The position numbers and the translations under genes are program-made. Below are positions 32,151-39,418 of a stretch of DNA of 48,521 nucleotides, one piece after another (within the stretch, counting starts at the first letter, position 1; each line of letters opens with the position of its first letter). Below the pieces are notes generated by a model. That model was not told where the DNA came from. It did not search any database and was given only the letters and a program-made list of their open reading frames with translations. Source of the stretch: an uncultured Geobacter sp. (GTDB taxonomy: Bacteria > Desulfobacterota > Desulfuromonadia > Geobacterales > Geobacteraceae); NCBI GenBank assembly GCA_903925075.1, contig CAIYDQ010000217.1, positions 1 through 48,521 on the forward strand. The letters are read 5' to 3'.

Positions 32151-34415
32151 ATGCAACTGATGCAACTGAGAGATTTTTACCGTTCGGACAGTAAACGCGG
32201 TCTGCTGGCGCTGCCGCTGGCTCTGGCCATGTTGTCGTCGCCGGCGTTGGCCGACGAAGCCGGGACGGCGTCGCCACAACAAGCGGCGCCCGTTACCAAG
32301 AATGCTCCGGTGCAACTGACCGAAATCGACGTGCAAGCGAGTAAACCTCCCAGAGTAGGGAGCGCTGAAACCGGCTACCGGGTCGAGACCGTTTCGGTCG
32401 GACCGTTGGGGACTAAGGACCCGATGGAGATCCCCTATTCCATCAGCGTGGTGCCGGGCGATCTCATGGAAAACCAGCCGACCACCGGCATGGCGCCTCT
32501 GACCAAATATATACCTTCCGCGCAGTACGAAGCCAGGGGGGGGATGTACCTCGGCCGACCGCAAACCCGCGGTTTCGAGGGGACCGTCTCGGAAAACAAC
32601 CGGATGGATGGACTCAATATCACCGCTACCACCGCATATCCCATGGAACAGTTTGAACGACTCGAAGTCATGACCGGCTTGGGCGGATCTCTTTATGGAC
32701 CCGCTTCGCCGTCGGGGGTATTCAATCTGGTGCTCAAACGACCCACGGCCCAGCCTTATTATGAACTGGACCTGGGTGACGTCAGTTACGGGGGGCAGGT
32801 CAACAATTACTACCATGCCGACCTGAGCGGCCCGCTGGGACATGGCTTCAGTTACCGGGCCAACCTGCTCTACGACAGCGGCCACGAGTGGGCGCCGAGC
32901 AGCACCATCACCCGTAAGCTTACCAGCCTGGCTCTCGATTGGCGTGGGCTCCCCCACACCGTCGTGGAGACCAATTTTAGCTATTACGAGCTTCACGAAC
33001 AGGGCTTCCCGGCCGGCTTTTCCTACGCAAGCAGCATCGCGACCCCCGGCACGAACATCAAATTGCCGGGTGCGCTCGATCCCACCCGCGCGGGCTACGG
33101 CCAGAGTTGGGCCGGCTACGATCTTTCCACGCGCACTGCGAGCATTAAGGTGAAGCACGACTTCAGCGAGAACTGGCATCTCACTTTCGGCTTTCTGGAC
33201 CAGTCGGCCGGTAGAAACGTGTTTCAGGTCCTCAACACGTTGACCGACAACGTCGGCACCTTCCAAACTTCGCTCGGCGCCTTGCCTAATGCCAATACCA
33301 CCACCTTCGTGGTGGACAGCGAATTGTTGAACCTGAACGGCCGCGTGAAAACCGGAGATGTAACCCATGACCTCGTGCTCGGAACCAGTGGGCACCAAAG
33401 AAGCAACACGACTCTGTCGACCGTTTTCGCCAAACAAATAGTCGGCACCGCCAACATCAACAACCCGGTCAGTTATCCGGAGCCTGTCTGGAACCAAAAG
33501 CAGGACAGCTACATCTCCAACGTGATCCAGGAACAAGTCTTGAACGCCGTGGACACCCTCACCTATAAATCATGGTCAGCGATTCTTTCCACCAGTTACA
33601 GTTGGCTGAACTCCGCCACCTATAACGTAAGCGGCGCCACGACCAACAAATCCCGCGACGAAGGGTTCAGTTACGGGGCCAGCATTGCCAACAAGCCGTT
33701 CGAAAATACCCTTGTTTATTTTTCCTACGCAGACAGCCTGCAGCAGGGCGATACGGCGCCGACGGGCACCAGCAACTCAAATGTGACGCTCCCCCCTTTC
33801 CGCAGCACGCAGTATGAAACCGGCGTGAAGGTTTCCTTGGACAAGATCGATCTGACCACCGCACTGTTCCGCATCGACCGCCCCTATGCGTTTACCAGCG
33901 GCAATGTGTTCCAGGTTCAGGGTAAGCAGATCAACTACGGCGCCGAACTGATGGTGGCAGGCGAAATCATCGATCGCGTAAAGGTTTTTGGCGGCGTCGC
34001 CATACTGAATCCCAAGCTTGTGGACACGGGCAGTTTTACCACCGAGGACAAGGACGTCATCGGCGTTCCCAAGGTGCAGAGCAACGTTTATGTGGAATAT
34101 CGGATGCCCTTCATCACCGGCCTGACGCCGTCCCTTAACGTGCACTACGTCGGCCGGCGTGCGGCGGACGCGGAAAATGTATCCTATGCGAGTGCCTATA
34201 CGACCCTCGACCTCGGCGTCAGGTATGTCAGCACGCTGATCGGAAAAGAAACCACTTGGCGTCTCACGGTCAACAATGTGACCAACGAACGGTACTGGGC
34301 ATCGGTCATGCCGAGCAACATCAACGGAGGCAGCCTCACCCCCGCGAGCACGCTTAACACGGCATATCTCGGCACGCCTCGGGAGATCATCGCCTCGATG
34401 CAGGTCAAATTTTGA
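32151..34415 (+). CDS. TonB-dependent outer-membrane receptor, probably for molybdate/tungstate or a chelate
   Basis: 754 residues. A signal peptide (basic n-region, GLLALPLALAMLSSPALA) is followed by a likely TonB-box zone (TEIDVQAS). The plug spans about 75-210 (IPYSISVVPGDLMENQPT; RGFEGTVSENNRMDGLN; FERLEVMTGLGGSLYGPASP). The beta-barrel ends in VKF with C-terminal Phe, as required for BAM insertion. The family fits FhuA/FecA-like siderophore receptors. Its only visible promoter region carries a ModE-like site and two Moco-type riboswitches, and it opens an operon with a binding protein, permease, ATPase and TonB/ExbBD. Molybdenum or tungsten oxyanion uptake is therefore inferred; iron or another metal chelate remains possible. 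Confidence 0.88.
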   Translation: MQLMQLRDFYRSDSKRGLLALPLALAMLSSPALADEAGTASPQQAAPVTKNAPVQLTEIDVQASKPPRVGSAETGYRVETVSVGPLGTKDPMEIPYSISVVPGDLMENQPTTGMAPLTKYIPSAQYEARGGMYLGRPQTRGFEGTVSENNRMDGLNITATTAYPMEQFERLEVMTGLGGSLYGPASPSGVFNLVLKRPTAQPYYELDLGDVSYGGQVNNYYHADLSGPLGHGFSYRANLLYDSGHEWAPSSTITRKLTSLALDWRGLPHTVVETNFSYYELHEQGFPAGFSYASSIATPGTNIKLPGALDPTRAGYGQSWAGYDLSTRTASIKVKHDFSENWHLTFGFLDQSAGRNVFQVLNTLTDNVGTFQTSLGALPNANTTTFVVDSELLNLNGRVKTGDVTHDLVLGTSGHQRSNTTLSTVFAKQIVGTANINNPVSYPEPVWNQKQDSYISNVIQEQVLNAVDTLTYKSWSAILSTSYSWLNSATYNVSGATTNKSRDEGFSYGASIANKPFENTLVYFSYADSLQQGDTAPTGTSNSNVTLPPFRSTQYETGVKVSLDKIDLTTALFRIDRPYAFTSGNVFQVQGKQINYGAELMVAGEIIDRVKVFGGVAILNPKLVDTGSFTTEDKDVIGVPKVQSNVYVEYRMPFITGLTPSLNVHYVGRRAADAENVSYASAYTTLDLGVRYVSTLIGKETTWRLTVNNVTNERYWASVMPSNINGGSLTPASTLNTAYLGTPREIIASMQVKF

Positions 34416-34464
34416 CCTGATTAGCGCTGGTCTTCAGCCACTCATAGTTAGCGAAAGAAAGCTT

Positions 34465-34536
34465 CGTAGGATGTGGTGAGGCACGAACCGCATCGGTTTA
34501 GGACGATGCGGTTCACTATGTTCACCACATCCTACG
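34465..34536. repeat. REP-like palindromic element between receptor and binding-protein genes
   Basis: CGTAGGATGTGGTGA (34465-34479) is a perfect inverted repeat of TCACCACATCCTACG (34522-34536). Inside, GAACCGCATCG (34485-34495) pairs with CGATGCGGTTC (34504-34514). The transcript would form a long hairpin within the operon. The style (TAGG...GGTGAGGCACGAA core) resembles the other palindromic elements at 39.7, 41.6 and 48.3 kb and REP/RAYT-type repeats in general. It may tune relative expression of receptor and transporter. Confidence 0.8.
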
Positions 34537-34577
34537 GGTATGTTTATGGCGTTGAATTTAGATACGGCGGAATCGCA

Positions 34578-38287: not shown

Positions 38288-38288
38288 C

Positions 38289-38987
38289 ATGGAACAGAAA
38301 CTCGGACTTGCCCATTTCATCTCGCAAACGGATAGCGTCGGCTTGACGGTGCTCCTGCTCTTGGTGAGCATGTCAATCGCCAGCTGGTACCTGATCCTGA
38401 CCAGGTCGTTAGCCAACCTTGCCGCTCACAAACGTGCCAACCTTTTCCTGCAGAGTTTTTGGGAGGCGGAGTCCCTGCCGGATATGGAGAAAATTCTGCA
38501 GCGGGAAGAAACGGACAACGCCTTTGCCGAACTTGCCAAGCAGGCCCTGACGGCCGGGCGGGATGGAAGCCGTTACGGCGTTCAGAAACTGGCCCTGGCG
38601 GGAGGGCTGTCCGAGTTCGTCACCCGGGCCCTGCGCAACAGTCTGGATCAGGAGTCCGCCCGCAGCGAAACGGGTTTGACCGTACTCGCCACCGCCGGCT
38701 CGGCGGCTCCCTATATCGGCCTGTTCGGCACCGTCTGGGGGATTTACCATGCGCTGGTGTTTATTGGGCTGAGCGGCCAGGGAACCCTTGACAAGGTGGC
38801 CGGCCCGGTAGGCGAGGCTCTGATCATGACCGCCGTCGGTCTGGCGGTCGCCATTCCGGCGGTCCTGGCCTACAACTCCTTCAGCCGCCGCAACCGGATC
38901 TGGCTCGCGCGGCTGGACGGTTTCGCCCACGACTTGTACACCCTGGTCACCGTCGGCGAAAAGACCAACGGCGCGCAGACGCACTAG
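38289..38987 (+). CDS. exbB: ExbB/TolQ/MotA-family proton channel subunit
   Basis: 232 residues from the ATG at 38289, 1 bp after tonB. TM1 is near 17-40. The MotA/TolQ/ExbB domain holds TAGSAAPYIGLFGTVWGIYH (TM2) and PVGEALIMTAVGLAVAIPAV (TM3), with the cytoplasmic loop between TM1 and TM2. It forms the pentameric proton-driven stator with ExbD that powers TonB. Confidence 0.93.
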   Translation: MEQKLGLAHFISQTDSVGLTVLLLLVSMSIASWYLILTRSLANLAAHKRANLFLQSFWEAESLPDMEKILQREETDNAFAELAKQALTAGRDGSRYGVQKLALAGGLSEFVTRALRNSLDQESARSETGLTVLATAGSAAPYIGLFGTVWGIYHALVFIGLSGQGTLDKVAGPVGEALIMTAVGLAVAIPAVLAYNSFSRRNRIWLARLDGFAHDLYTLVTVGEKTNGAQTH

Positions 38988-38998
38988 AGGGGAAAAAC

Positions 38999-39418
38999 AT
39001 GGCAGTAGGAAGCTTCAACCAACGCCGTCCCCAAGGGCCGATGTCGGACATGAACATGGTGCCGATGATCGACGTCATGCTGGTGCTGCTGGTGATCTTC
39101 ATCATCACCGCGCCGCTATTGACCGACGCGGTCAAGGTCGATTTGCCGAAGGCGTCCAGCAGCGCCAACATCACCAAGGCGGACCACATCGAGTTGGGCA
39201 TTCGCAAGGACGGATCGCTTTTTTGGAACGGAGAGGCGGTGACGCGTGCCTCCCTGCACGCCCGGTTTGCCGCGGAATCGAAAAAAAGCCCGCAGCCGGA
39301 GCTCCATATCCGCGCCGACCGGCAGGCGTATTACGAATTGGTTGCCCAGGCGATGTCCGACGCATCCAAAGCGGGGATCGTCCGTATCGGCTTCGTGACC
39401 GATCCGACCCCCGATTGA
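38999..39418 (+). CDS. exbD: ExbD/TolR-family biopolymer transport protein
   Basis: 139 residues, ribosome site GAGGGGAAAA. A short cytoplasmic N-terminus (SDMNMVPMIDVMLVLLVIF) holds the proton-carrying Asp in the single membrane helix. The periplasmic domain contains PELHIRADRQAYYELVAQAM, the TolR/ExbD signature. It completes the TonB-ExbB-ExbD motor and is the last recognisable gene of the riboswitch-led operon. Confidence 0.93.
   Translation: MAVGSFNQRRPQGPMSDMNMVPMIDVMLVLLVIFIITAPLLTDAVKVDLPKASSSANITKADHIELGIRKDGSLFWNGEAVTRASLHARFAAESKKSPQPELHIRADRQAYYELVAQAMSDASKAGIVRIGFVTDPTPD

Follow-up and report, generated by a model that had tools for sequence, protein, structure and literature searches.

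We identified an operon in a contig of an uncultured Geobacter sp. (CAIYDQ010000217.1; the window analyzed is the whole stretch of 48,521 nucleotides) that, judging from its genes, its control elements and its homologs, probably encodes a trans-envelope importer with tungsten and/or molybdenum as cargo. Its seven genes occupy positions 32151-39418, an interval that begins with the start codon of the gene for a TonB-dependent outer-membrane receptor, ends with the stop codon of exbD and also contains genes for a binding lipoprotein, a FecCD-type permease, an ATP-binding cassette (ABC) ATPase, TonB and ExbB. Upstream are two tandem riboswitches of the molybdenum cofactor (Moco) family, RF01055, each followed by a terminator-like hairpin, and a ModE-like palindrome; the receptor subfamily recurs with elements of molybdenum or tungsten (Mo/W) sensing or transport in several phyla. 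A first-pass annotation had proposed both this gene set and its position behind Moco-type riboswitches and a ModE-like site. Both proposals hold, as all seven products score above the Pfam cut-offs, both riboswitches exceed the gathering threshold, and the palindrome matches 18 of 18 specified positions.

Control elements of the operon

The palindrome lies just 5' of the first riboswitch and is the only site in the window matching at least 17 of the 18 specified positions of CGYTRTRTA-N5-7-TAYAYARCG, a consensus taken from E. coli. The genome (G000, 6.55 Mb, in which the window is contig C217) contains 13 RF01055 copies and encodes a ModE domain above the cut-off on contig C156, so that the operon, with its palindrome, is a predicted member of a ModE regulon. 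Over the whole window, three RF01055 copies were the only Rfam matches at gathering scores, and no cobalamin riboswitch was found. Taken by themselves, the aptamers have no exceptional folding stability (z -0.6 for the first and -1.7 for the second).

Both operon riboswitches lack P3, a feature claimed solely for these two copies, since a P3-length parse left 31 of 103 copies unparsed. According to the accessible text of PMC2408646, tungsten-cofactor (Tuco) metabolism is indicated by the genes of 17 of the 19 organisms that have P3-less copies, and by this correlation both riboswitches are predicted to be of the Tuco type. That work on the Moco/Tuco regulon, concerned with the same RNA family, describes tandem P3-less copies with terminators in S. 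wolfei, including a triple arrangement read as a possible 'digital' switch, and a tandem in G. metallireducens.

Recurrence with riboswitches and ModE-like sites

The first-pass annotation had suggested a search of other genomes for Moco riboswitches upstream of TonB receptors, and such pairs were found. RF01055 is present in 40 of the 48 genomes of our family sample. In six genomes, 7 of 53 receptors (PF07715 matches; one of the seven is truncated at the edge of its contig) have one of the 43 RF01055 copies used no more than 5 kb upstream on the same strand, against 0.18 expected; the binomial p of 8e-10 is generous, because these genomes were picked after lipoprotein matches near riboswitches had been seen. 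The remaining 46 receptors do not have a riboswitch at such a position. The closest homolog of the window receptor in the family, with 48% identity, is found in a Geobacteraceae metagenome-assembled genome (G045, STCSWMC_37, JAQUHM010000138), where it starts just behind an RF01055 copy accompanied by a ModE-like site of 16/18.

In the genus g13, riboswitch-led runs (L084, L087, L089, L090, L093 and L095) contain varying combinations of genes for FecCD, ATPase, FmdE-like, NTPase, ExbB, ExbD, TonB and DUF364 proteins, together with receptors of two further families, followed by XdhC-like, ModC-like and ModA genes; most of these names were assigned by similarity to scanned copies. Outside the family, we inspected 60 riboswitch regions of about 150 listed, and in one of them (L163, genome G050) the riboswitch is followed by a receptor, which is of the g13 type; receptors were judged there by similarity to our receptor set, which could miss unrelated ones, and several regions end at contig ends. 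The query TBDR_L147_7011 is probably no receptor, and its matches were ignored. Two further observations concern these riboswitches: in two g13 genomes a Moco-II RNA (RF01713) lies shortly 3' of the Moco riboswitch (L087, 2046-2095; L090, 2139-2189), and at L161 a 605-residue protein is encoded behind the riboswitch.

ModE-like sites of at least 15/18 occur within -100 to +20 of 17 of 100 riboswitch copies, compared with 4 of 500 shuffles and none of 96 controls taken downstream. The 100 copies exclude the three of the window and come from 68 loci in 24 genomes, made up of nearly all listed copies outside genus g1, two g1 genomes and the genome of the window itself. The motif, fixed beforehand, was applied unchanged to plasmids carrying receptor homologs. 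In 227,513 bp from 13 plasmid loci there are six sites of at least 17/18, all of them 12-137 bp upstream of a receptor start, and they cover all five enterobacterial loci (Cronobacter, three Pantoea and Chimaeribacter); in each of these five, shuffling the 400 bp upstream 500 times never reached this. Four further Pantoea loci served as a held-out test (51,779 bp), and every one contains exactly one site of at least 15, scoring 17/18. In three of them it lies 44-141 bp before the annotated receptor start, and in the fourth, where the receptor gene is unannotated, the alignment begins 262 bp after the site. Overall, all nine enterobacterial loci opened have a 17/18 site ahead of the receptor, and elsewhere in the 17 plasmid stretches no such site occurs. 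Near the receptors of the eight non-enterobacterial plasmid loci there is no site of at least 16, and the upstream regions of the Bacteroidales and G422 loci described below have none of at least 14.

The receptor subfamily in other phyla and on plasmids

A scan of named genomes with two short peptide patterns yielded three Bacteroidales loci (L124-L126; 36-39% identity). In Barb4 (L124), an ATPase-receptor-lipoprotein run is divergent from anfH, nifI, nifI, anfD, anfG and anfK. This nitrogenase passes the Fe-only model (TIGR01861 for anfD, 1021 bits, cut-off 873.8) and fails the V model; the remaining nitrogenase genes were named by eye. Dysgonamonadaceae Cd354_bin49 (L125) has a ModE-domain gene upstream, at 94.9 bits just below the cut-off of 98.5. 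No RF01055 copy was found in the three Bacteroidales loci, nor in the stretch from G422, a genome of another Desulfobacterota family (L140), in which receptor, lipoprotein, FecCD and ATPase genes are followed by one for a ModC-like ATPase (TIGR02142, 247 bits, cut-off 285).

A plasmid search returned 171 records at E 1e-30, and we opened 17 of the 20 listed, among them 14 of the 16 with at least 35.8% identity. ModA-like genes are present at L211 and L214: one adjoins the receptor on a Methylocystis plasmid (TIGR01256, 75.2 bits, cut-off 62.5), and a Polymorphobacter plasmid has one (64.1 bits) together with a ModE-domain gene (73.3 bits, below the cut-off of 98.5). A Granulicella plasmid carries a WtpA-like fragment (50 bits). 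On pPAT9B01 of Pantoea At-9b (L218), a close MolA homolog, which scores 459 bits to Haemophilus HI_1472 and is likely its ortholog, is divergent from the receptor, as is a ModA-like gene (274 bits, cut-off 288).

Taking together the 19 loci with identity of about 36% or more (the window, L083, L124-L126, L209-L218 and L222-L225), 16 have at least one Mo/W marker, defined as a riboswitch, a ModE-like site of at least 16/18, a ModE-domain gene, a ModA/WtpA/MolA-like gene or an Fe-only nitrogenase. The weakest markers are the nitrogenase of L124 and the fragment of L215, and the 16 are not 16 independent events, because the Pantoea loci are close kin. Three plasmid receptors are more distant. Two of them, L219 and L221, have sigma/FecR neighbors, and no Mo/W marker was seen at either locus; at L220, from Methylosinus trichosporium OB3b, the neighbors are genes for a NifD-like protein, FecCD, an ATPase and TonB. 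L127 (21% identity, E 2e-5) was dropped as spurious.

Two side observations belong to these loci. The NifD-like gene of L220 (4169-5737), which stands beside the related receptor with a 16/18 ModE-like site just upstream, recalls an Azotobacter operon with a NifD-like gene described in the accessible text of PMC9542535. A small cysteine-containing protein is encoded beside the receptor in two Bacteroidales loci and one Desulfobacterota locus (L124, 12219-12590; L126, 4948-5310; L141, 6536-7015); the similarity was judged by eye, and the L124 copy had no NCBIfam or Pfam match at the thresholds used.

Binding lipoprotein and probable cargo

Among binding proteins with an established ligand, MolA is the nearest relative of the lipoprotein in the PDB. 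In a search of PDB sequences, 4ovk (Veillonella, ligand unnamed) came first and HI_1472/MolA (3psa) next at 1.5e-23, with BtuF at 4e-4. The AlphaFold model of the lipoprotein (predicted local distance difference test, pLDDT, 90.0) gave MolA at rank 2 in Foldseek. The lipoprotein was rejected as a MolA ortholog, scoring 87 bits to HI_1472 against the 459 of the Pantoea protein. The structure predicted for the receptor was of low quality (pLDDT 62.7) and was set aside as evidence.

The first-pass annotation took control by a Moco-type switch to imply that the receptor carries molybdenum or tungsten. The cargo itself is supported by the recurrence of the receptor with Mo/W elements; the step from the switch is not, since riboswitch control shows what the cell senses and not what the receptor binds. 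The choice of metals also stands, with the correction that the P3-less form places tungsten beside molybdenum. We consider tungsten at least as likely a cargo as molybdenum, because the switch is P3-less and because aldehyde-ferredoxin-oxidoreductase-like genes lie behind other riboswitches of the genome (best family PRK09849, 96 and 215 bits, far below the cut-off of 868). ModE senses both oxyanions, molybdate and tungstate, and its site is therefore no guide between the metals.

More tentatively, the substrate of the receptor might be a chelate of tungsten or molybdenum that is produced as a metallophore (a 'tungstophore'). The operon would then be the receptor half of a dedicated W/Mo scavenging system under tungsten-cofactor control, and several receptor families without detectable pairwise similarity, along with FecCD-type and energy-coupling factor (ECF)-type importers, would have been recruited into one regulon.

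Alternative explanations

Several observations weigh against an importer of tungsten or molybdenum. The receptor is rare in the genomes sampled: it was found in 2 of the 48 genomes of the family at E 1e-40 (the genome of the window and G045), in 2 of 395 genomes of the phylum at 1e-60, and in 1 of 393 Bacteroidales at 1e-100, namely the search center itself. At three of the 19 subfamily loci no Mo/W marker was seen (L126, a contig of 6.2 kb, and L209 and L216 from Paracoccus, of which L216 is unannotated), and ars genes lie near the homolog at L210. In searches with profiles built from relatives of the lipoprotein, MolA ranked fourth and third, behind structural-genomics entries, one of which is named as iron-complex binding, and MolBC-A of Haemophilus is described in PMC4031551, as far as its accessible text goes, as a low-affinity system.

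Further points of this kind would fit an iron-siderophore importer under incidental Mo/W control, supplying for example iron for an Fe-only nitrogenase or for iron-rich tungsten enzymes. The receptor scores 237.1 bits against TIGR01783 (TonB-dependent siderophore receptor, cut-off 223.5), a subfamily model that says nothing tested on cargo, and among receptors in the PDB it is closest to FemA, BauA and FhuA. YiuA, an iron-siderophore protein, is close to the lipoprotein in sequence and in structure (Foldseek rank 5); as MolA and YiuA are both near, a bare oxyanion and a catecholate-like complex are both possible ligands. The efeUO iron uptake genes lie on the other side of the Pantoea At-9b receptor from its MolA homolog, and an Fe-only nitrogenase stands beside the Barb4 homolog. 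Against this explanation, the best Fur-box matches upstream of 12 receptor loci are within the range of shuffles (at best equaled by 23 of 200), and that of the window receptor, 11/19, was equaled by 186 of 200, so that no Fur-type control was seen in a scan that used one Fur-box consensus with mononucleotide shuffles and that a divergent site could escape. ModE-like sites recur instead, homologs adjoin MolA-like and ModA-like genes, and the operon is adjoined by modD and modA. We regard an iron-siderophore importer as unlikely. At gathering thresholds, no cobalamin switch was found in the scanned receptor and lipoprotein homolog loci; homologs behind Fur or cobalamin switches, the outcome that the first-pass annotation named as contrary to its proposal, were thus not seen where tested.

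Salvage of the cofactor is less probable still. The receptor would import molybdopterin, Moco or Tuco itself, in the way that BtuB takes up the ligand of the cobalamin switch. The same logic underlies the pairing of receptors with cobalamin and thiamine riboswitches (PMC5317091, accessible text), FecCD-type pumps import B12 too, and BtuC models are among the nearest to the permease. A MoeA-like gene behind a riboswitch in the genome argues otherwise, as the cell probably makes its own cofactor. Sites for ModE, an oxyanion sensor, and ModA/MolA neighbors also suggest metal import. Equally improbable is some other cargo needed when molybdenum or tungsten is short, such as vanadium or an organic nutrient: in Azotobacter, three operons with TonB siderophore receptors are among the genes activated when Mo and V are absent (PMC9542535, accessible text) and the Methylosinus relative adjoins a NifD-like gene, but the sole nitrogenase examined near a close homolog passes the Fe-only and not the V model.

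Proposed mechanism and known systems

If the operon is an importer of tungsten and/or molybdenum, low cofactor would allow RNA polymerase through the terminators behind the tandem P3-less riboswitches, and loss of metal-bound ModE would free the promoter. The receptor would then move a W/Mo species over the outer membrane, powered by the TonB-ExbB-ExbD of the operon; the MolA-like lipoprotein would capture it and the FecCD-type ABC pump would deliver it to the cytoplasm, while the adjacent ModA may handle oxyanion arriving by the classical route.

Molybdate and tungstate are usually taken to cross the outer membrane passively. Such entry is already in question, because PMC11734730 cites, in its accessible text, a secreted ModA and the outer-membrane IcmP delivering molybdate in Pseudomonas. 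Among the closest known systems is MolBC-A of Haemophilus influenzae (HI1470-1472), likewise an ABC importer of the FecCD type, whose binding protein belongs to the family of the lipoprotein; the accessible text of PMC4031551 makes no mention of TonB for this low-affinity system, and the operon of the window adds a receptor, a Ton motor and riboswitch control. In Azotobacter chroococcum, an annotation sentence in PMC4465626 predicts that a TonB receptor with an ABC transporter (Achr_39320-39290), located by modE/G and modA1B1C1, is 'potentially for molybdate'; the passage names no riboswitch, and the likeness to our receptor is by description. Also alike by description are the TonB receptors of Azotobacter vinelandii that are activated without Mo and V under VnfA1 control, encoded in operons with ABC components, one with a NifD-like gene; the accessible text of PMC9542535 names for them no riboswitch and no tested cargo. 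BtuB-BtuFCD with the cobalamin riboswitch similarly joins a riboswitch-controlled receptor to a FecCD-type pump. It differs in riboswitch class, and the operon is surrounded by Mo/W rather than corrinoid genes.

Our literature search, which left most subscription papers outside, brought up no paper that connects Moco riboswitches with TonB receptors. The main text of PMC2408646, as accessible, does not contain 'TonB'; an FhuD structure is in its reference list but is not cited in the text accessible, so a supplementary mention of FhuD-like proteins is possible. PMC5317091 covers riboswitches and TonB separately in its accessible part. What seems new here is a TonB receptor under a Moco riboswitch, a TonB receptor for molybdate having already been proposed (PMC4465626, in the passage accessible).

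If the proposal is right, a riboswitch- and ModE-controlled Ton system adds tungsten and molybdenum to the cargoes of TonB, and its genes are candidates for metal-chelate uptake by nitrogen fixers. Physiological support for such uptake was reportedly provided by Bellenger in 2008. Named loci in Geobacteraceae, Bacteroidales, Methylocystis and Pantoea make the proposal testable, in the enterobacterial case in easily grown bacteria, because all nine loci opened there have ModE-like sites.

Layout of the operon and its surroundings

The features of the operon and its neighbors are collected in Table 1. In NCBIfam, ExbB and ExbD score best to TolQ and TolR, below the cut-offs. No modB or modC was identified adjoining modA. 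A very strong hairpin behind the receptor gene and an intergenic repeat between exbD and modD (39643-39770) intervene, so that a single transcript from the receptor to modA is only putative. A second copy of this repeat, which has inverted-repeat character, is found at 41514-41641 (128 nucleotides each, 88% alike), and a third, shorter one at 48286-48359.

Table 1. Coordinates of the operon, its control elements and adjacent genes in the window
Feature	Position	Strand	Evidence
ModE-like palindrome, two 9-bp half-sites, 6-bp spacer	31603-31626	.	18/18 specified positions
Moco-family riboswitch 1, P3-less	31629-31744	+	RF01055, 57.6 bits (gathering 36); P3 columns deleted in alignment
Terminator-like hairpin and T run after riboswitch 1	31763-31793	+	Fold z -3.5 for stretch folded
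Moco-family riboswitch 2, P3-less	31839-31957	+	RF01055, 68.0 bits (gathering 36); P3 columns deleted in alignment
Terminator-like hairpin and T run after riboswitch 2	31973-32004	+	Fold z -4.5 for stretch folded
TonB-dependent outer-membrane receptor, 754 aa	32151-34415	+	PF07715 (Plug) and PF00593 (barrel), both above cut-off
Long hairpin between receptor and lipoprotein genes	34455-34550	.	Fold -50.8 kcal/mol, z -8.9
MolA-like binding lipoprotein, 356 aa	34578-35648	+	PF01497; LASC lipobox by eye
FecCD-type permease	35671-36723	+	PF01032, 275.6 bits
ABC ATPase	36716-37480	+	PF00005
TonB	37490-38287	+	PF03544
ExbB/TolQ-type protein	38289-38987	+	PF01618
ExbD/TolR-type protein	38999-39418	+	PF02472
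Weaker ModE-like palindrome	39527-39550	.	16/18
ModD	39840-40706	+	TIGR01334, 240.5 bits (cut-off 178.85)
ModA, molybdate-binding protein family	40736-41479	+	TIGR01256, 187.7 bits (cut-off 62.5)
XdhC-family maturation factor, aldehyde oxidoreductase type	41731-42786	+	NF045664, above cut-off

Upstream in the window, at 24754-28654, genes for a binding protein, two permeases and an ATPase resemble those of a sulfate-type ABC transporter, an assignment made by eye on the translations. On contig C252 of the same genome (L134, 5955-13057), genes for a receptor, TonB, a MolA-like protein and a GNAT-like protein are followed by a molybdopterin-oxidoreductase-like gene, the last two named by eye; there is no riboswitch upstream in the scanned stretch, and two RF01055 copies lie downstream.

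At 44042-48521, the third Moco riboswitch of the window leads a gene for a TiaS-like small protein (38.5 bits) and one for a twin-arginine translocation (TAT)-type binding protein that is weakly TupA-like (39.7 bits, cut-off 400), followed by ECF-type ATPase and T genes (T by eye) and then the contig end. Riboswitch-led ECF ATPase runs with a TonB-dependent receptor of another family occur at L075, L080, L115 and L117 (genomes G006, G023, G034 and G036, of four genera), three of the four with a weak TonB-like match; perhaps such runs constitute a second Ton system for molybdenum or tungsten, of the ECF type.

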